Shown: positions 5,051-34,083 of the stretch, piece after piece
Numbering within the stretch: position 1 is the first letter of the stretch
How the letters are laid out: the number at the start of each line of letters is the position of its first letter
From: Azonexus sp.
GTDB lineage: Bacteria; Pseudomonadota; Gammaproteobacteria; Burkholderiales; Rhodocyclaceae
DNA length: 37,242 nt
Assembly (NCBI GenBank): GCA_017983615.1
Contig: JAGOBB010000021.1
Span: 1 to 37,242, forward strand
Reading direction: 5' to 3'
The notes under the pieces: model-generated
Databases searched by the model: none
What the model was told of the DNA's origin: nothing
The model's input: the letters and a program-made list of their open reading frames with translations, nothing else
Program-made: the position numbers and the translations under genes

Positions 5051-6403
5051 ATGAAAACCTTTCTCGACTGGTCGGCTTACGACACCTACGGCGTCGGCGA
5101 CGCCTATGCCGGCATTCCGGCGACTGGCGGCAATTACGCCAAGGCGGTCGCCGTCTGCATGAACAACCACCAGTGCCAGCGCGACGGCAAGGGCGTCATG
5201 TGCCCGAGCTACCGCATCACGCACGACCCGGCGCATTCGACCGGCGCCCGGGTCAAGGCCTTCAAGGCGGCGCTCAATGGCGAGTTGACGCTAAAACCGG
5301 GCGATGATCCCTTCGCCCACCCCGATCTGGCGGCGGCGATGGATCTCTGCGTCTCGTGCAAGGGCTGCAAGAAAGAATGCCCGAGCGCCGTCGACATGAC
5401 GCTGATCAAGACCGAATACCTGGCGCACCGGAACGAGTGCCTCGGCCTTTCCCGGCGGAGCAGGCTATTTGGTGGTCTGCCGCAATGGCTGCATCGCTGG
5501 CGCGCACCATTGGCCGTGCTGGTCCGCTGGCGCAATGCCTCGCCGATGATTGCCAAGTTGGCTGAACGCTGGCTGGGCATTTCGGCCCGGCGGCCGATTC
5601 CGGAGATCGTCGACCGCCCGATTGTGGCGCCAAACCCGGAATGCTACGGTCGGCCCAAAAAAGTGGCCATTTTCGTAGACACCTTCACGCATTACTACAC
5701 GCCGGAAGTCGCCGAGGCGGCGATAAAGGTGCTGCAGGCCGGTGGCTACACGGTCGAAATCCTGCGCCCGGCGGCCGACGACGGCGAACCGGAACGCCCG
5801 CTCTGTTGCGGCCGGACCTACCTGTCGCAGGGCATGGTCGATGCGGCGAAACTGGAGGCGCAGCGAGTGATGGCCGCCCTCGGTCCGGCGCTGGCCGAGG
5901 GGACGCCGATTGTCGGGCTGGAACCGTCCTGCCTGCTGGCTCTGCGCGACGAGTTCTACAGCCTGTCGCTCGGACCGGACATCGGTCAGTTGAGCAAGCA
6001 GGCCTTCCTCTTCGAGGAATTCCTGATGCGCGAGGGCAACAAGGGCCTGAAACTGCCGCTCAAGCCGCTGCCAGGGGGCAGGGCCGTGGTCCATGGTCAT
6101 TGCCACCAGAAGGCCTTCGGCGCGATGAAATCGGTGAAAAAGGTGCTCGGCTGGATACCGGAATTCGAGTTCGAGATCGTCGATGCCAGTTGCTGCGGCA
6201 TGTCCGGCAGCTTCGGGCTGGAGGCCGAGCATTACGAGGCCTCGGTGGCGATGGGCGAACTGGCCTTGTTGCCGGCGGTGCGGGCGGCGCCGGCCGATGC
6301 GCCTATCGTTGCCGACGGATTTTCCTGCCGGCACCAGATCAAGGACGGCACCGGGCGGGACGCGGAGCACGTTGCCGTGCTCCTGGCGCGGGCGCTGGCC
6401 TAG
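5051..6403 (+). CDS. (Fe-S)-binding CCG-domain protein, like the C-terminal half of FAD-linked D-lactate/glycolate oxidases
   Basis: This 450-aa protein corresponds to the iron-sulfur half of large FAD-linked D-2-hydroxyacid dehydrogenases. Cysteine clusters lie at C36/C42/C51 (the CPSYR segment followed by HST) and at CVSCKGCKKEC (100-110). Two CCG-type modules follow, with LCCGRTY, HGHCHQKAF and SCCGMSGSFG. The FAD-binding half is absent: the 217 bp upstream contain no such domain and the gene starts fresh at 5051 with only a weak ribosome site. It may work with a separately encoded flavoprotein, as in GlcDEF, or be a relic. A dispersed repeat (5640-5675) is read in frame between the two halves. 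Its TAG stop overlaps the stop of the convergent gene through a shared CTAG. Confidence 0.8.
   Translation: MKTFLDWSAYDTYGVGDAYAGIPATGGNYAKAVAVCMNNHQCQRDGKGVMCPSYRITHDPAHSTGARVKAFKAALNGELTLKPGDDPFAHPDLAAAMDLCVSCKGCKKECPSAVDMTLIKTEYLAHRNECLGLSRRSRLFGGLPQWLHRWRAPLAVLVRWRNASPMIAKLAERWLGISARRPIPEIVDRPIVAPNPECYGRPKKVAIFVDTFTHYYTPEVAEAAIKVLQAGGYTVEILRPAADDGEPERPLCCGRTYLSQGMVDAAKLEAQRVMAALGPALAEGTPIVGLEPSCLLALRDEFYSLSLGPDIGQLSKQAFLFEEFLMREGNKGLKLPLKPLPGGRAVVHGHCHQKAFGAMKSVKKVLGWIPEFEFEIVDASCCGMSGSFGLEAEHYEASVAMGELALLPAVRAAPADAPIVADGFSCRHQIKDGTGRDAEHVAVLLARALA
5640..5675 (+). repeat. Dispersed ~36-bp repeat, copy 2 (in frame inside a CDS)
   Basis: It starts AATGCTACGGTC, then GGCCCAAAAAAGTGGCC and an ATTTTC tail. 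Within the Fe-S protein it encodes the segment ECYGRPKKVAIF, which lies at the start of the first CCG module. Confidence 0.85.
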
Positions 6404-9487: not shown

Positions 9488-10093
9488 TCAGCTTGCGAGC
9501 CACCAGCTGGCGGTTGCGACCCAGGCCAGCAGGACGAGGGCGGCCAGTGGTCGGGCCGACGGAATGGCTTCGTCCGGTGCGCCGAGCTTGTGGCCGGTGA
9601 ACATGGCGCGGACCATGTTCTCGCCGTGCAGGATGCTGCCGGAAATGACGCCGGCGACGTGCACAATGACGACAGTCAGCATCGTGGCCGCCAGGGCTTC
9701 ATGAAACTCGGCCAGCCAGTCGTCACCGAGTTCGTTGTAGGCCGACCAGCCGGAGAGGCCGCTCAGGATGCCGAGGCTGAGCAGGGCAACGATAGCCCAG
9801 CCGCCGGCCGGGTTGTGGCCAGTGTGGTGGGCTGGTTGTAGATCAAGCATGCCTTCCAGATAACCGGCGACAGCGCGCGGGCCGCGGACGAAATCGACGA
9901 AGCGGGCGTAGCGGGAACCGATGAATCCCCAGGGGAGGCGGAAGGCCGCGACGGCGACGACGACCCCGCCGGACACCGCATGAACCAGCCGCCAGCTTTC
10001 GCTGTCTGCGGTCAGCCAGGCGACGATGAAGCCGCCGACCATCAACCAGTGGCCGAGGCGCACCGGCCAGTCCCAGACAAGAATTTTTTTCAT
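9488..10093 (-). CDS. Cytochrome b561-type membrane protein of the SHP/DHC operon
   Basis: A cytochrome b of about 201 aa with several membrane helices. Likely haem-ligating histidines include those in WDWPVRLGHW, LVHAVSG, EFHEALAA and VVIVHVAG. In other bacteria this type is encoded next to SHP and DHC and is thought to pass electrons from the quinone pool to DHC and then to SHP. The start is set at ATG 10093-10091, immediately after the arm of the 240-bp foldback element. An in-frame ATG two codons earlier lies inside the arm. The ribosome site (GAGG) lies within the element arm, so translation may depend on opening that stem. Confidence 0.88.
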   Translation of the reverse strand: MKKILVWDWPVRLGHWLMVGGFIVAWLTADSESWRLVHAVSGGVVVAVAAFRLPWGFIGSRYARFVDFVRGPRAVAGYLEGMLDLQPAHHTGHNPAGGWAIVALLSLGILSGLSGWSAYNELGDDWLAEFHEALAATMLTVVIVHVAGVISGSILHGENMVRAMFTGHKLGAPDEAIPSARPLAALVLLAWVATASWWLAS

Positions 10094-10333
10094 GATCATT
10101 GAAACCTCAGTTGGACGCGGCTGATGGTGCGTTTGGGCGGGATGGCCGGCGCGAAGCGACGACGCGGCAGGCTCGCGCCTGCAAGGAGGAGCGACAAAGC
10201 CGGACGCCCGAGCAGACGTGCCAGCGGCCGCGTAGCGCTGTCACCCTATGGGTGATTGAATCGAAGGCACAAAGGCCAGGATTCAGGCGGCTAGCCAGAG
10301 ATGGATAAGCGGTCAACTGAGGTTTCAATGATC
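10094..10333. mobile_element. 240-bp foldback element A between DHC and cytochrome b
   Basis: Left arm 10094-10113 and right arm 10314-10333 are exact inverted repeats of 20 bp (GATCATTGAAACCTCAGTTG and its complement). Inside are a 54-bp core (10148-10201), a 6-bp hairpin with TCGC loop (10167-10182), an inner imperfect stem, and a separate hairpin TCACCC-TAT-GGGTGA (10241-10255). The core is 51/54 identical to that of element B (19952-20191), which is also exactly 240 bp. The element begins 1 nt after the DHC stop codon and ends against the ATG of cytochrome b. No protein is encoded: the core is read in different frames in the two copies. Mobility is inferred from the two copies only. Confidence 0.85.
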
Positions 10334-10334
10334 T

Positions 10335-10796
10335 CTACTCCCGCAGTTCCGGAATGGCGATGTCGTGTTCTCCGTAGTTGCCGCTGGCCGCACCGCGATG
10401 GCAGGCCTCGCAGTTGGCGGCCGACTTGACGCGCGGATCGCGCCAGAACTTGGCAGGTACTTCGCGGTGCTTGCGCACGAAACGCTGGGTCTCGGTGATG
10501 CGCGGCGGGTTGCCGGCGCTGCCCAGGCGGCCAGCATTGCCGGCATAACGCTCAAGGAACGCGGTGATTTCCTGCCTTTTTTGGGGGGTGACCGTAGCAT
10601 CGCTGCCGAAATGCTTGTCCAGGCCGGCCATGATTCGCCGCCAGTCGTCGGCGGCCAGCAAGGCGGGCTGGTAGGCGATGTGGCAGCTACTGCACTCGGC
10701 CTTGAAGCTGGCCGGTGCATTGGCCGGCATCGGCAGACGGTCGGCCAGGGCGGGCATGCTCAGGCCGAGCAGGGCAATCAGGGTGATGGTTTTCAT
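10335..10796 (-). CDS. DHC, dihaem cytochrome c
   Basis: A periplasmic electron carrier of 153 aa with a signal peptide (MKTITLIALLGLSMPALA) and two haem motifs, CSSCH at 35-39 and CEACH at 129-133. This matches the dihaem cytochrome c that partners SHP in purple bacteria and Shewanella. It lies one base after the SHP stop. A dispersed repeat (10571-10601) is read in frame as DATVTPQKRQE around residues 66-76, in the linker between haem domains. The stop codon is followed by element A. Confidence 0.9.
   Translation of the reverse strand: MKTITLIALLGLSMPALADRLPMPANAPASFKAECSSCHIAYQPALLAADDWRRIMAGLDKHFGSDATVTPQKRQEITAFLERYAGNAGRLGSAGNPPRITETQRFVRKHREVPAKFWRDPRVKSAANCEACHRGAASGNYGEHDIAIPELRE
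10571..10601 (-). repeat. Dispersed repeat, copy 3 (inside DHC)
   Basis: On the minus strand it reads GATGCTACGGTC, a C-run, AAAAAA and GGCAGG. The GCTACGGTC core is exact while the 3' part is more diverged than in other copies. It is in frame in the DHC gene. Confidence 0.7.
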
Positions 10797-16573: not shown

Positions 16574-16872
16574 AGCCGTCCCGCCTCGATGACCGGCATC
16601 AGCCAGAAGAAGACGTTGGCCCGCGGCAGTTCGTGCTTGATCAAGGCCAGGACTTCCCGCATCGCCGACTCCGGTCCGACCGTCTGGATGCGGGTGCGGG
16701 GCGAATGTCCGCTCACCAGCTCGGCCGCTTCGACCAGGCTGACGACTGAACCGTGTCCTTCGGCCGGGCTGGCCGTGAACCCGACGACCAGGTCGGGGCG
16801 GGAAAGTAGCAGATCTTCGATGTGTTGGGCGACATCGTCAGGCATGAGCAGGTTGAGCAGGACATCAGCCAT
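16570..16872 (-). CDS. DUF3240 family protein
   Basis: A 100-aa soluble protein with a PII-like ferredoxin-fold pattern (MADVLLNLLMPDDVAQHIEDLLL, then VVGFTASPAEGHG, and TRIQTVGPESAMREVLALIK). DUF3240 proteins are encoded in many Cus/Czc-type RND efflux operons, and their role is not established. The start at 16872 follows GGAGA by 6 nt and overlaps the CzcA stop. The stop overlaps the CzcC start, so the three genes are translationally linked. Confidence 0.82.
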   Translation of the reverse strand: MADVLLNLLMPDDVAQHIEDLLLSRPDLVVGFTASPAEGHGSVVSLVEAAELVSGHSPRTRIQTVGPESAMREVLALIKHELPRANVFFWLMPVIEAGRL

Positions 16873-19800
16873 GCTTTTTCTCCGTGAAGCTGACGTTGGG
16901 TACAACGCCGAAGCGGCGGAACAGGATGGGTAGCAGGACCAGGGTCAGCGCGGTCGAGGTGAGCAGGCCGCCGATGACGACGATGGCCAGTGGGCGCTGC
17001 ACTTCCGAGCCGGGGCCGCTGGCGAAGAGCATCGGGACGAGGCCGAAGGCGGCGATGCTGGCGGTCATCAGCACCGGGCGCAGCCGGCGTCGGGCGCCTT
17101 CGACTACCGCTTCGGCGACCGGCAGGCCGCGCCCCAGCAACTGGTTGAAATAGGTGACCATGACAACGCCGTTGAGCACCGCGATGCCGAGCAGGGCGAT
17201 GAAGCCGACCGAGGCCGGTACCGACAGATATTCGCCGGAAATGAGCAGGCCAAAGACGCCGCCGATCATCGCAAACGGGATGTTGGAAAGGACCAGCAAG
17301 GCCTGACGCACCGAGCCAAAGGTCGAGAAGAGCAGGAAGAAGATCAGCGCCAGGGCGACCGGCACGACGACCATCAGGCGCGCCGCCGCCCGTTGCTGGT
17401 TCTCGAACTGGCCACCCCAGGCCAGTTGGTAGCCGTCGGGCAGCTTGACGTCGCGGGCAACGCTGGCCTTTGCATCGTCGACAAAGCCGACCAAGTCACG
17501 GTCGCGGACATTGGACTGGACGACGACATAGCGCTGGGCGTTTTCGCGGTCGACCTTGACCGGGCCGTCGATGCGTTCGAGGCGGGCAACGCTGGCCAAG
17601 GGCACGCTGCCGCCACCGGGCAGGCTCAGGCGCAGGGCCGCGAAATCGGCCGGCGAGGCGCGCAGGCTGTCCGGGCCGCGCAGGACGACCGGTACGCGGC
17701 GACCCTGCTCGATGACCGTCCCGACATTGCGCCCTTCGAGCAACGCCTTCAGGTCGTTCTGGATGGCATCGACATTCAGCCCGAAGCGGCCGGCGGCCAG
17801 GCGGTCGATGGCGATCCTGAGGTACTGCACGCCGTCGTTCTTCAGGGTGAAGGTATCTTCGGCGCCGCGGACCTTCTTGACGGTGTTTTCGACCTCGACC
17901 GCAAGCCTGTTCAGCGTGGCGAGATCGGGGCCGAATATCTTGATCGCCAGGTCGCCACGGACGCCAGTCAGCATTTCCGAGACGCGCATGTCGATTGGCT
18001 GGGTGAAGGAGAAGCCAACGCCGGGAAAATCGGCCATGACCGCCCGCAACTGGTCGGCCAGCCAGGCCGGATCGGGATTGCGCCAGCTGTCGCGAGGCTG
18101 CAGGACCATGAAGGTGTCGGTCTGGTTGAGGCCCATCGGGTCGAGACCAAGTTCGTCGGAGCCGGCGCGGGCGACGATGGCTTTGACTTCCGGTACCTGG
18201 GCGAGGATTGCCTGCTGGACGCGGCTGTCGATGGCGATGGTCTGGTCGAGGCCGATCGAGGGCAGCTTTTCCAGCTGCATGATGATGTCGCCTTCGTCCA
18301 TGGTCGGCATGAAGCTCTTGCCGAGCAGCAGGAAGGCGCCGGCCGCCGCAGCCAGGGCAATGGTCGCGCCGAGCAGGTAGCTGCGGCTGTGGGCCAGCGC
18401 CGACGCGAGAACGCGCTCGTAGAGGGCGGCCAGCTTTTTGACCAGCCAGGGCTCATGATGGGCGCCGCGCCGGATCATGTAGGAGGCGAGCACCGGCACG
18501 ACGGTCAGCGACAGCAACAGGGATGAAGCCAGCGCGAAGACGATGGTCAGCGCGACCGGGCCGAACATCTTGCCTTCCAGTCCCTGCAGGGTCAGCAGCG
18601 GCAGGAAGACGATGATGATGATGACGATGCCCGAGGCGACCGGTGCCGCAACTTCACGCGCGGCGCGGAAGATCAGGTGCAAGGTCGGCAGGTTGTCGGG
18701 GGCGTCGGCGAGCTGGCTCTCGACGTTTTCGACGACGACGACGGCGGCATCGACCAGCATGCCGATGGCGATGGCCAGGCCGCCCAGGCTCATCAGGTTG
18801 GCCGACAAGCCGGCCATGCGCATCAGGATGAAGGTGGCGAGCGCCGACAGCGGCAGCATCAGGGCGACGACCAGCGCTGCGCGCAGGTTGCCGAGAAAGG
18901 CGAGGAGCAGCAGCACGACGAGCACGATGGCTTCGAGCAGCGCCTTGGAGACGGTGCCGACGGCGCGCTGGACCAGGTTGCTGCGGTCGTAGAAGGCTTC
19001 GATGGTGACGCCGGGTGGCAGGGTCGGGGCGATTTCGGCCAGCCGGGCTTTGACACCGGCGACCACGGCCTGGGCATTGGCGCCGCGCAGGCCGAGCACC
19101 AGTCCTTCGACAGCCTCGCCGTTGCCGCTCTTGGTCACTGCGCCGTAACGGGTCAGGGCGCCGAGGCCGACCGTGGCGACATCGGCGACGCGAACGATGT
19201 TGCCATCCGTGGCCTGCAAAACAATCGCTTTTACATCATCGACCGTAGCAATTGCACCTTCGGCCCGCACCAGCAACGATTCTTCGCCATCGTTCAGGCG
19301 GCCGGCGCCGTCGTTGCGGTTGTTGGCTTCCAGCACGGCCTGCAGGTCTTTCAGCGCCAGTCCGCGCGCTGCCAGCAGTTGCGGGTTGGGGACGATCTCG
19401 AAGGTGCGGACTTCGCCGCCCAGGCTGTTGACGTCGGCGACGCCGGGAATGGTACGCAGTTGCGGGCGGATCACCCAGTCGAGCAGGGCGCGCTTGTCGG
19501 CCAGCGACAGGTCGCCCTCGATCGTGAACATGTACATCTCGCCGAGCGGCGTGGTGATCGGTGCCATGCCGCCGCTGACGCCGGGCGGCAGGTTGCCCAT
19601 CGCGGCGGCCAGCCGTTCGCCGACTTGCTGGCGCGCCCAGTAGATGTCGGTGCCGTCCTCAAAATCGAGGGTAATGTCGGTCAGCGCGTACTTGGAGGTC
19701 GAACGCAGCAGGCGCTGGTGCGGAATGCCGAGCAGTTCCTGCTCGACCGGCACGGCAAGGCGGGTCTCAACCTCTTCCGGCGTCATGCCCGGCGCCTTCA

Positions 19801-19951
19801 GGATGATCTTGACCTGGGTCGTCGAGACATCGGGAAAGGCGTCGATCGGCAGGCCGAGGAAGGCCTGCACGCCGGCGCCGACGAGCATGACGGTGAGCAC
19901 CAGCAGCAACAGGCGCTGGGTCAGGGAGAAGCGGATCAGGGCGGCGAGCAT
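16865..19951 (-). CDS. czcA: CzcA/CusA-type heavy-metal RND efflux pump
   Basis: The inner-membrane proton-driven pump of a tripartite metal efflux system, 1028 aa, the usual RND length with 12 helices and two large periplasmic loops (first loop begins FLGLPIDAFPDVSTTQV; second contains QPIDMRVSEMLTGVRGD). The fourth helix, near residue 398, reads AIGMLVDAAVVVVEN. It lacks the DFG Asp and has DAA instead of DGA, which in Nies's HME classes is closer to monovalent Cu/Ag pumps than to Co/Zn/Cd pumps. So Cu/Ag is possible despite the name. The ATG directly follows element B, whose arm contains the AGGATC ribosome site. Confidence 0.9.
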   Translation of the reverse strand: MLAALIRFSLTQRLLLLVLTVMLVGAGVQAFLGLPIDAFPDVSTTQVKIILKAPGMTPEEVETRLAVPVEQELLGIPHQRLLRSTSKYALTDITLDFEDGTDIYWARQQVGERLAAAMGNLPPGVSGGMAPITTPLGEMYMFTIEGDLSLADKRALLDWVIRPQLRTIPGVADVNSLGGEVRTFEIVPNPQLLAARGLALKDLQAVLEANNRNDGAGRLNDGEESLLVRAEGAIATVDDVKAIVLQATDGNIVRVADVATVGLGALTRYGAVTKSGNGEAVEGLVLGLRGANAQAVVAGVKARLAEIAPTLPPGVTIEAFYDRSNLVQRAVGTVSKALLEAIVLVVLLLLAFLGNLRAALVVALMLPLSALATFILMRMAGLSANLMSLGGLAIAIGMLVDAAVVVVENVESQLADAPDNLPTLHLIFRAAREVAAPVASGIVIIIIVFLPLLTLQGLEGKMFGPVALTIVFALASSLLLSLTVVPVLASYMIRRGAHHEPWLVKKLAALYERVLASALAHSRSYLLGATIALAAAAGAFLLLGKSFMPTMDEGDIIMQLEKLPSIGLDQTIAIDSRVQQAILAQVPEVKAIVARAGSDELGLDPMGLNQTDTFMVLQPRDSWRNPDPAWLADQLRAVMADFPGVGFSFTQPIDMRVSEMLTGVRGDLAIKIFGPDLATLNRLAVEVENTVKKVRGAEDTFTLKNDGVQYLRIAIDRLAAGRFGLNVDAIQNDLKALLEGRNVGTVIEQGRRVPVVLRGPDSLRASPADFAALRLSLPGGGSVPLASVARLERIDGPVKVDRENAQRYVVVQSNVRDRDLVGFVDDAKASVARDVKLPDGYQLAWGGQFENQQRAAARLMVVVPVALALIFFLLFSTFGSVRQALLVLSNIPFAMIGGVFGLLISGEYLSVPASVGFIALLGIAVLNGVVMVTYFNQLLGRGLPVAEAVVEGARRRLRPVLMTASIAAFGLVPMLFASGPGSEVQRPLAIVVIGGLLTSTALTLVLLPILFRRFGVVPNVSFTEKKHG

Positions 19952-20191
19952 GATCCTAGAAACCGCAGCTGGAAGCGCTCGCCGGTGTGCCCGGGCTGGT
20001 GCATGGCGCGAAGCGACGACGCAGCAGGCTCATGCCTGCAAGGAGGAGCGACAAAGCCAGGTGCCGGTCCGGGCACACCGGCGGGCGCGTAGCGGACTCA
20101 CTGATCGGGGGATCCTTGTCGAAGTTGGCAAATTCAAAGTTCATTCGGCGTCCCATACTGCAATGAGCGGTCAACTGCGGTTTCTAGGATC
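19952..20191. mobile_element. 240-bp foldback element B between czcB and czcA
   Basis: The arms (19952-19971 and 20172-20191) are inverted repeats, GATCCTAGAAACCGCAG plus three further bases, with mismatch only near the inner end. The core 20005-20058 is 51/54 identical to element A, with a hairpin GCAGGC-TCAT-GCCTGC (20024-20039) and a perfect 14-bp inner stem (19981-19994 with 20069-20082). Arm bases differ from element A at three positions, and both strands change together. The right arm overlaps the czcB stop codon by 2 nt, and the left arm ends directly at the czcA ATG. It encodes no supported protein. Confidence 0.87.
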
Positions 20192-21263
20192 ATTCCTTGC
20201 CGACTCCGGTCAGCATGGCTTTGAGGCCGGATACGCCCTTGACGGCGACGCGCTCGCCGGCCTTGATGCCGTCGACGGTGACGCTGTCGCCACCCTGGCT
20301 GACGATGCGCACCGGGCGAACGGCGAAGGTGGTTCCCTTGTCGTCGTTGGCCGTCTGTACGAAAGCGAGGGTGGAGCCCTGGTTGCGGGCGATGGCCGAC
20401 GCTGGCAGGTGCTGCTGCTGGCTGGCCGGACCGGCGATTTCAACCTCGACGACCTGGCCGGGTCGCAAGATCTCGGCGCCCTTGGCGATTTCGGCGCGGA
20501 GCAGGACCGTCTGGCTGGCCGCGTCGACAGCACGCCCGACGGCGATCAGCCGGCCGACGACTTCGCTGCGAGCCAGCTTGACCGGGCTGCCTTCGCGCAG
20601 CGTCGCTGCCAGTTCCAGCGGGGCCTGGATTTCCAGCCACAGTGGCGACAGCTTGGCGATGCGATAGATCAGGGCCGAGGTTTCGACACGCTGGCCGAGC
20701 TGGACGCCCTGTTCGAGCACGACGCCGTCAATCGGGGCGGTCAGCGCCAGTTTGCCGCCCAGCTTGCCCGGCGCAGCGCCGGCCAGCGCCAGTCCCTGGC
20801 GCCTTTCGCTGGCCTGCGCGCCGGCCTGGGCGGCGGCGGCACGGGTGGATTGCAGCCGGGATTCCGCAATCAGGCCCTCGGCGAACAGTTGTTCGTCGCG
20901 TTTCAGGGTTTGTTGCAACAGCGCTGCCTGGCTGTCCGCCTGCAGGGCGTCGCGTTGCAGTTCAAGTGCTTGCGGGCTGGCCAGATGGGCAACGACCTGC
21001 CCGCGCTTGACGTTCGATCCGGGCGCCACGGCCAGCATTTCGATCATGCCGCCGACCGGGGCGGCGACGACGCGCAACTGCTCGTTGGGAACCAGCACGC
21101 GGGCGGGCAGGAGACCGCCTGCGGAGCCGGACTGGCTGACCAGCGCAGTCTCGATGCCCAGGGCCTTGAGTTGGGTAGCTTGCAGCGTGATCGATTCGCC
21201 GGCGCAGGCCAGGTGGCAGGCAGCGGCGAAAATGAGCGGAGACAGCAGAAGTTTGGGCAACAT
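20190..21263 (-). CDS. czcB: CzcB, periplasmic adaptor of the metal efflux system
   Basis: The membrane-fusion protein linking CzcA to CzcC, 357 aa. It has a signal peptide (MLPKLLLSPLIFAAACHLACAGE), a biotinyl-lipoyl-like half motif (VAAPVGGMIEMLAVAPGSNVKRGQVV), a coiled-coil hairpin (LQRDALQADSQAALLQQTLKRDEQ) and beta-barrel segments (LTAPIDGVVLEQGVQLGQRV). No His-rich N-terminal metal-binding segment is seen. The start is placed at ATG 21263, which begins the signal peptide; a GTG at 21299 lies at or before the likely transcription start. It is first in the operon, and its stop codon lies in element B. Confidence 0.88.
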   Translation of the reverse strand: MLPKLLLSPLIFAAACHLACAGESITLQATQLKALGIETALVSQSGSAGGLLPARVLVPNEQLRVVAAPVGGMIEMLAVAPGSNVKRGQVVAHLASPQALELQRDALQADSQAALLQQTLKRDEQLFAEGLIAESRLQSTRAAAAQAGAQASERRQGLALAGAAPGKLGGKLALTAPIDGVVLEQGVQLGQRVETSALIYRIAKLSPLWLEIQAPLELAATLREGSPVKLARSEVVGRLIAVGRAVDAASQTVLLRAEIAKGAEILRPGQVVEVEIAGPASQQQHLPASAIARNQGSTLAFVQTANDDKGTTFAVRPVRIVSQGGDSVTVDGIKAGERVAVKGVSGLKAMLTGVGKE

Positions 21264-21288
21264 GGCTCGATCCAGGAACGGTCGAGCG

Positions 21289-21321
21289 AGTGTATTCACC
21301 CTAGATTAAGGCTCGCTTAAG
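21289..21321 (-). promoter_or_regulatory. Promoter and QseB/PmrA-type boxes of the efflux operon
   Basis: On the minus strand: CTTAAG (21316-21321), 5 bp, CTTAAT (21305-21310), 10 bp, TACACT (21289-21294). Box spacing, the 10-bp gap and the -10 hexamer are the same as in the SHP promoter at 11234-11288. Control by the response regulator encoded at 8818-9474 is inferred. Confidence 0.75.
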
Positions 21322-21468
21322 TGGTGGTATTGCCGTGGAGAGGCTTGCGGGAGTTGGTTCGGCGATTGACCGCTGGCTATTAGATCGCGTCCCGATGTCA
21401 TGCGCCGGGAAATACGGCTGGGGATATTGTGCGAAGCGCCGGAGGGCAAGAAGCGGGGCAGCTTTTTT

Positions 21469-21504
21469 GATTTTTGCCGTTTTTTCGGGCCGACCGTAGC
21501 ATTC
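21469..21504 (-). repeat. Dispersed ~36-bp repeat, copy 4
   Basis: On the minus strand it begins GAATGCTACGGTC, then GGCCCGAAAAAACGGC and AAAAATC. It lies 40 bp downstream of the ankyrin gene stop, in the 21322-21543 gap where I see no gene. Confidence 0.85.
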
Positions 21505-21543
21505 TGGAAAACTGGGGCAACGGCAGGCTTTTGGCGCGAGGGG

Positions 21544-33922: not shown

Positions 33923-34083
33923 AGAGCCTGTGAATTTTTTGGACGCGCCCGAGCAACGTGTCCGGGCGAGCACGATCAAGGCGCAAAGCACAGCCATAGC
34001 TCGGGCTATGGTGAGCATTTGCAACGCCGAGCGGGCTCGCCTGGGCGCGGGGAGCGGGCGTGGACAAGAATTTCACAGGCTCT
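33923..34083. mobile_element. 161-bp foldback element C between nifX-like and modB
   Basis: The ends AGAGCCTGTGAA and TTCACAGGCTCT are inverted repeats. The similarity of left arm to reverse-complemented right arm continues imperfectly for most of the element, and the centre is a perfect hairpin CCATAGC-TCGG-GCTATGG. It begins right after the TAA of the upstream gene and ends 7 nt before the modB ATG. It looks like a MITE- or REP-type palindromic element. It shares TTGGACGCG near the left end with element A and a GGCGC(A/G)AAGC block before the central hairpin with both A and B. Confidence 0.8.

Follow-up and report, generated by a model that had tools for sequence, protein, structure and literature searches.

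Two long foldback elements in an Azonexus contig each lie between the stop codon of one gene and the start codon of the next, and the two arms of each element change together. What are these elements, and what holds their arms in register? The window, i.e., the whole stretch of 37,242 nucleotides analyzed here (contig JAGOBB010000021.1), contains both elements, A and B. An earlier note had seen in the arms a match to the downstream ribosome site and suggested that they may be inverted copies of their target. Our comparison of copies in related genomes suggests with high probability that A and B belong to a family of non-autonomous elements (MITEs) of about 235 bp, for which we infer mobilization by an IS1380-like transposase.

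Elements A and B and their neighboring genes

Read directly, A and B span 240 bp each from GATC to GATC, and their 54-bp cores differ by three mismatches (51/54 identical), both as described before; measured between the ends proper, each has 234 bp. Three positions of the 20-nt arms distinguish A from B, each changed on both sides, which also agrees with the earlier description except for its label "T/G-type", the changes being A/C, T/A, and T/G. The left arm of B carries one extra, one-sided change, C for T. Matched ends of A/B-type elements read CCTNGAAACC(T/G)CAGTTG, with variants, and on both arms A has the ends CATTGAAACC in place of CCTTGAAACC.

Both left arms lie against an ATG, as had been noted: that of the RND pump gene (19951-19949) directly adjoins the left arm of B, and the ATG at 10093-10091 adjoins that of A, which contains a second in-frame ATG. 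The ribosome sites proposed within these arms are badly spaced, GAGG in A lying 11 nt and AGGA in B 2 nt from the ATG. On the other side, contact of the right arm with the preceding stop codon was confirmed. In A, the dihaem cytochrome gene stops with a TAG (10337-10335) immediately beyond the right end; in B, the right end shares sequence with the TGA (20192-20190) that closes the HlyD/CusB-type gene. Pfam searches assigned cytochrome b561 and dihaem cytochrome c to the neighbors of A, and AcrB/D/F and HlyD_D23 to those of B. Fold z-scores of B were -7.4 and -10.6 for its two strands, beyond what chance would give. Coordinates are collected in Table 1.

Table 1. Elements A and B, a third foldback element, and adjoining genes in the window
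Feature	Position	Strand	Remark
Element B, probable 234-bp foldback MITE	19955..20188	+	core orientation +, antisense to flanking genes
Left terminal inverted repeat of B	19955..19971	+	CCTAGAAACCGCAGCTG
Right terminal inverted repeat of B	20172..20188	-	
Left TNA of B	19951..19953	.	TGA, presumed target duplication, A/T on either side
Right TNA of B	20190..20192	.	TCA on +; on -, TGA stop of upstream gene
Conserved hairpin core of B	19970..20094	+	covariance model R1, 111.5 bits (B itself among the sequences used to build R1)
Element A, probable 234-bp foldback MITE	10097..10330	+	
Conserved hairpin core of A	10112..10237	+	R1, 105 bits
RND efflux pump gene (AcrB/D/F family)	16865..19951	-	downstream of B
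Membrane fusion protein gene (HlyD/CusB type)	20190..21299	-	upstream of B
Cytochrome b561 gene	9488..10093	-	downstream of A
Dihaem cytochrome c gene	10335..10796	-	upstream of A
Third, degenerate foldback element	33923..34083	+	arms AGAGCCTGTGAA...TTCACAGGCTCT, unrelated to A/B; R1 25.3 bits, E 4e-4, weak

Two further observations concern the window itself. The right end of A (10321-10334) reads GATCATTG, the same as the left arm, and departs from the expected end by an indel and substitutions; it looks rewritten from the left arm. A motif, GAATGCTACGGTC, is repeated at 394-437, 5636-5667, and 21463-21507 (the last copy inverted), near an A run, and a stretch resembling it ends near 10600. 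These repeats are perhaps a common regulatory site.

Element ends, target sites, and a candidate transposase

Copies of the family were located by core similarity and inner anchors, which gave 205 places, 190 of them with both anchors and 158 distinct. Terminal inverted repeats were found in 143 of the 158 distinct copies, namely those with a length of 101-344 bp and at least 12 of 17 end positions matched, 6 of the 17 being covered by the inner anchors used for extraction. Of the copies listed, most measured 234 or 235 bp. At 234 bp, A and B are below 500 bp and too short for a transposase gene.

The sequences flanking these 143 copies point to a duplicated target. The middle base of the TNA is identical on both sides in 97 copies (shuffled mean 46.8, maximum 68) and unequal in the other 46, including B, whose two TNA copies differ at exactly this base; all five flanking bases are identical in 50. 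In 130 of 143 copies, the bases that adjoin the two CC ends are complementary to each other; this position thus acts as part of the arm, so that the duplication may be 3 bp. An insertion sequence at locus L203 has five identical flanking bases, and the target duplication is accordingly given as 3 or 5 bp. A strict 5-bp duplication for A/B-type copies was considered and fails at the base next to the ends.

Sites without the element were common among relatives. For the site of B, 27 of 30 places, taken from a longer list, were empty; the other three were B itself, one ortholog, and one element from another subfamily that occupies this junction. In 19 of the 27 empty sites the sequence reads TAATG, i.e., stop and start codons overlap. 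The site of A was empty in 29 of 30 places, likewise from a longer list. Occupancy is therefore patchy, 3/30 at B and 1/30 at A with the window counted in.

Two complete transposase genes between matched ends were detected in genomes carrying A/B-type elements. The first has the ends CCTAAAAACGGCAGTT (16/16 matched) with 3/5 identical flanking bases, and the second has CCTATTTTCCTCAGTT/CCTAAATTCCTCTGTT (13/16 matched) with TTTAT on both sides (5/5). Both products pass the PF13701 cut-off (59.6 and 63.3 bits vs 34.7) and score below the curated cut-off of the NCBIfam IS1380 model NF033539 (119.9 and 140.3 bits vs 180). Further transposase remains carry CCTAGAAACCTGAGTTG or, in the genus of the window, CCTAAAAACCGTAGTTA, at the one end visible, and a broken remnant in another genome has both ends; the matches closer to the ends of A and B are one-ended. 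A search with this group gave matches in 11 of 50 genomes and none in the genome of the window, which is 85.66% complete. The transposases returned had ends resembling those of A or B, in no case exactly, and among the IS1380-family genes in a first set of relatives none had these ends. Judged from these sequences, it is likely that an IS1380-like partner transposase moved the A/B-type elements, on which it would act in trans.

Members of the IS1380 family have ISEcp1-type ends, CCTAGATTC, and a 5-bp target duplication. The A/B family resembles them in ends that start with CCT and in partner transposases that match PF13701, but differs in that these partners fall below the NCBIfam IS1380 cut-off and that A and B carry no transposase. 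With MITEs mobilized by insertion sequences in general, the family shares short, non-coding copies with matched ends, target duplication, dispersal between genes, and transposase genes with similar ends elsewhere, whereas its strong stop/start seating with a preferred orientation and the conservation of an RNA-like interior in different taxa set it apart. Among described elements, the Chunjie MITE of Geobacter uraniireducens is reported to measure 235 bp at full length, with shorter variants down to 178 bp, and to have conserved ends, direct repeats, and one copy within an operon (PMC10969869). By this description it resembles A and B in length, ends, and operon seat, in another organism group. 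The same source characterizes ERIC and Correia elements as small mobile repeats whose ends are inverted and which can influence the mRNA that contains them (PMC10969869), and as short repeats with inverted ends they are, by description, like A and B. The titles and abstract openings listed from the open-licence literature contained no description of the A/B family.

The family is spread beyond the window. Counting B itself, the Azonexus genome of the window contains 9 places that match B, and 33 of the 76 genomes searched in the genus gave core matches. Of 300 genomes sampled from the order, 13 contained an exact 17-base end motif, and a 23-base end motif occurred in at least 120 stretches of the GTDB collection, the titles among the matches listed including Azonexus, Zoogloea, Sulfuricella, Gallionella, Thiobacillus, and Lysobacteraceae. 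Among the 212 end-motif matches listed, in which an element may count on both strands, 117 pair at 220-239 bp; the remaining pairs among them span about 111 to 335 bp, with three of more than 2 kb, and 38 have no partner end, several of these at locus ends or in incomplete copies. Viral contigs gave no match to an end motif, and plasmids searched with a 32-nt end gave nothing beyond one weak partial match. One Azonexus metagenome-assembled genome (JAUYEI01; G388) holds about two dozen of the at least 120 loci, with ends close to the consensus, and is a likely place in which to seek recent element activity. At locus L056 (7083, - strand), an incomplete left end was seen by eye about 100 bp upstream of an apparent tRNA gene.

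Seating at junctions and the origin of arm covariation

The placement of A and B against stop and start codons, as described in the earlier note, proved to be general. We examined 120 copies with both flanks, with 12 orthologs removed; in 99, genes were called on both sides. The caller, an in-house codon score for which eight open reading frames of the window were the training set, served for copies and control alike. The TNA is exactly the stop codon in 47 of the 99 copies; 44 have an ATG at offset 0 or 3, and one or the other applies to 69. In element-free gene gaps of at most 400 bp, 91 of 617 WTNAW sites were stop codons and 36 of 617 lay at starts. The excess of exact stops over this control (Fisher p 3e-12) refers to gaps from the window and 104 of the at least 120 end-motif loci, which include other genera than the tested copies; a looser control gave 93/1591. 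Among 53 exact-stop sites, the ATG begins one base before the stop (ATGA) in 18 and two bases after the first base of the stop (TGATG or TAATG) in 13, and the latter may coincide with ATGA. Between co-directional genes, the core strand was antisense to the genes in 60 cases and sense in 17 (p 9e-7).

This geometry would follow from insertion into WTNAW sites with duplication of the TNA center. TGA and TAA stops in A/T context are such targets, and insertion there would spare the stop codon on one side as well as the start codon on the other, including those overlapping as ATGA or TAATG. With both genes left intact, copies would accumulate at stop/start junctions. A TNA-centered target together with survival of the insertions that spare both genes thus explains the placement, target preference and survival being inseparable here.

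The covariation of arms between copies, also claimed before, was borne out in the family comparison. In our reading, the arms of a copy match because both of its ends derive from one source element, and subfamilies carry different matched ends. Comparison of flanks identified copies at the same junction in different genomes. In 8 same-site pairs, which include the junction of B, the interiors were unlike (0.64-0.77), as different as those of random copies. These pairs are separate insertions of different subfamilies. They had 22 two-sided arm differences, 22/22 matched within each copy, along with 12 one-sided ones; 7 of the 8 differed on both arms, and one (L251/L323) had no two-sided difference. 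In 13 same-site pairs each interior had its best match, or almost its best, in the other. The 8 of these with the highest identity, taken as the closest orthologous pairs (interior identity >0.87 with both flanks aligned, range 0.88 to 0.985), had 11 one-sided arm changes and no two-sided change. Since two-sided changes made up 16 of the 236 changed arm pairs seen between similar paralogs, 0 of 11 is weak evidence. The remaining five pairs, which come from two loci and are more diverged (0.83-0.89), had 13 one-sided changes along with 8 two-sided ones. Of the latter, 4 were matched in both copies, with one compensated arm change at each of the two loci.

Inheritance from different source subfamilies therefore accounts for most of the arm covariation, while a compensated arm change at a single site also seems to occur. 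In the 8 orthologous pairs, changes affected 7/240 nt in the arms, 8/400 in the inner helices, and 75/1237 unpaired positions. The scarcity of changes at paired columns, taken together with the compensated changes, raises the possibility that something keeps the fold. In one same-site pair from different genomes (L259 at 1450 and L320 at 1454, core orientation), left and right arm variants are exchanged, with flanks and core orientation kept.

The interior core and alternative readings

The interior of the elements covaries as well. In 45 copies, mostly from the genus (the first 45 of 63 non-redundant copies), 19 of 45 predicted pairs had two-sided, pair-keeping changes, and in a taxonomically diverse set of 34 (B together with 33 of 34 located copies, L057 being left out) this applied to 23 of 26 pairs. 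In the diverse set, the long inner helix written as the host-gene strand contained 609 Watson-Crick, 6 G.T, 51 A.C, and 48 other cells. The excess of A.C over G.T indicates that the wobble-tolerant strand is the opposite one, + in the window. The same count for the arms of the 143 copies was far less lopsided (68 vs 36). The + type strand also folds better in 33 of 34 diverse cores and in 13/13 and 25/26 of 39 later matches (71/73 altogether), the later cores having been found with a model of this very strand, which favors the result, and the copies sharing ancestry.

Covariance model R1, at rough E-values of up to 1e-4, matched 74 of 369 genomes of the class and 58 of 272 genera. At 64 loci, the core has the variable motif GGCAAGGCGC..GACG-hairpin-CAAGG..GCAACGC.GCC. 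It was found inside foldback elements with CCT ends as well as inside elements with unrelated ends (TATACCCGT..., GGGGGYGTT..., CCTTTAACGCAAGTTCG...) and in longer double-core forms. At L424, L457, L458, and L464, longer foldback elements with arm spans of about 250-275 bp contain two cores in inverted order. The third element of the window fills the gap between two open reading frames on the - strand. Rfam at gathering score returned a tRNA only for the window, and in a relaxed search the region of B reached a best E of 0.25 and one Sulfuricella copy gave nothing. The strand asymmetry of pairing suggests that the core common to foldback elements with other ends is an RNA-like hairpin. It is tempting to speculate that the interior is a selfish mobile module of fixed polarity, structured RNA or single strand, which would be selected instead of the ends and borrow unrelated transposase ends across Beta- and Gammaproteobacteria; we regard this as a tentative reading, possible rather than probable.

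Other processes might have shaped the arms and the fold. The arms might be selected as a translational coupler, in which the stem formed by the arms would mask the ribosome site of the following gene until a ribosome at the upstream stop opens the stem. This would fit the stops exactly at the element edge (47/99), the ATG at offset 0 or 3 (44/99) with GAGG in the preceding arm in 33 of 46 cases (orthologs included), the mostly overlapping gene pair at the site of B before insertion (TAATG in 19/27), the fully matched arms commoner at junctions (28/62) than elsewhere (15/58; p 0.036), and the compensated change at each of two loci. However, 7 of the 46 arms, those of B's type, have GCGG in place of GAGG, mean arm mismatches are alike by location (0.95 of 17 at junctions, 1.14 elsewhere; p 0.25), similar arms are found on transposase genes, and the 8 closest orthologous pairs changed on one side only, 11 vs 0, all of which makes selection for coupling improbable. 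Where the earlier note suggested inverted copies of the target, the similar ends on transposase genes, the target duplication, and the empty sites identify the arms as element ends. The search of relatives with alignment of flanks, as suggested there, revealed a general stop/start geometry and traced the arms mainly to subfamilies. The coupling model is needed neither for the arms nor for the placement; coupling through the arm stem may still arise as a by-product.

Equally improbable, to our mind, is a host-kept, non-selfish element acting in cis on the mRNA in processing, stability, or anti-polarity. Such a role would agree with the orientation bias of 60 to 17 in co-directional pairs (p 9e-7), the covarying interior, and the fewer changes at paired columns in orthologs, but the better-folding, G.U-tolerant strand is antisense to the host genes and thus in most copies not the mRNA strand, and occupancy is patchy (3/30 at B and 1/30 at A, window included). 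Hairpin-templated (quasi-palindrome) correction after insertion could have made a good part of the arm covariation. The right end of A, with its indel and substitutions relative to the expected end and the same GATCATTG as the left arm, would be accounted for, as would the complementary base next to the ends in 130/143 copies and the two loci with compensated changes. However, two-sided changes were absent from the 8 closest orthologous pairs, and the middle TNA base is complementary in just 18 of 143 copies, under the shuffled mean of 31.8; we consider such a contribution unlikely, if less so than the two preceding readings. Inheritance of matched ends from different subfamilies of a mobile element remains our preferred reading.

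As MITEs, the A/B family is ordinary in kind and unusual in its exact stop/start seat and its end-independent core. A MITE family frequently seated to the single nucleotide on stop/start junctions is a natural experiment, in which overlapping genes have been pulled 235 nt apart. The occurrence of one kind of core with unrelated ends, with three elements and two end types in the window, suggests a module under selection, which a classification of transposons by their ends would miss. A core with differing ends also makes the reason for which MITEs retain their fold testable.
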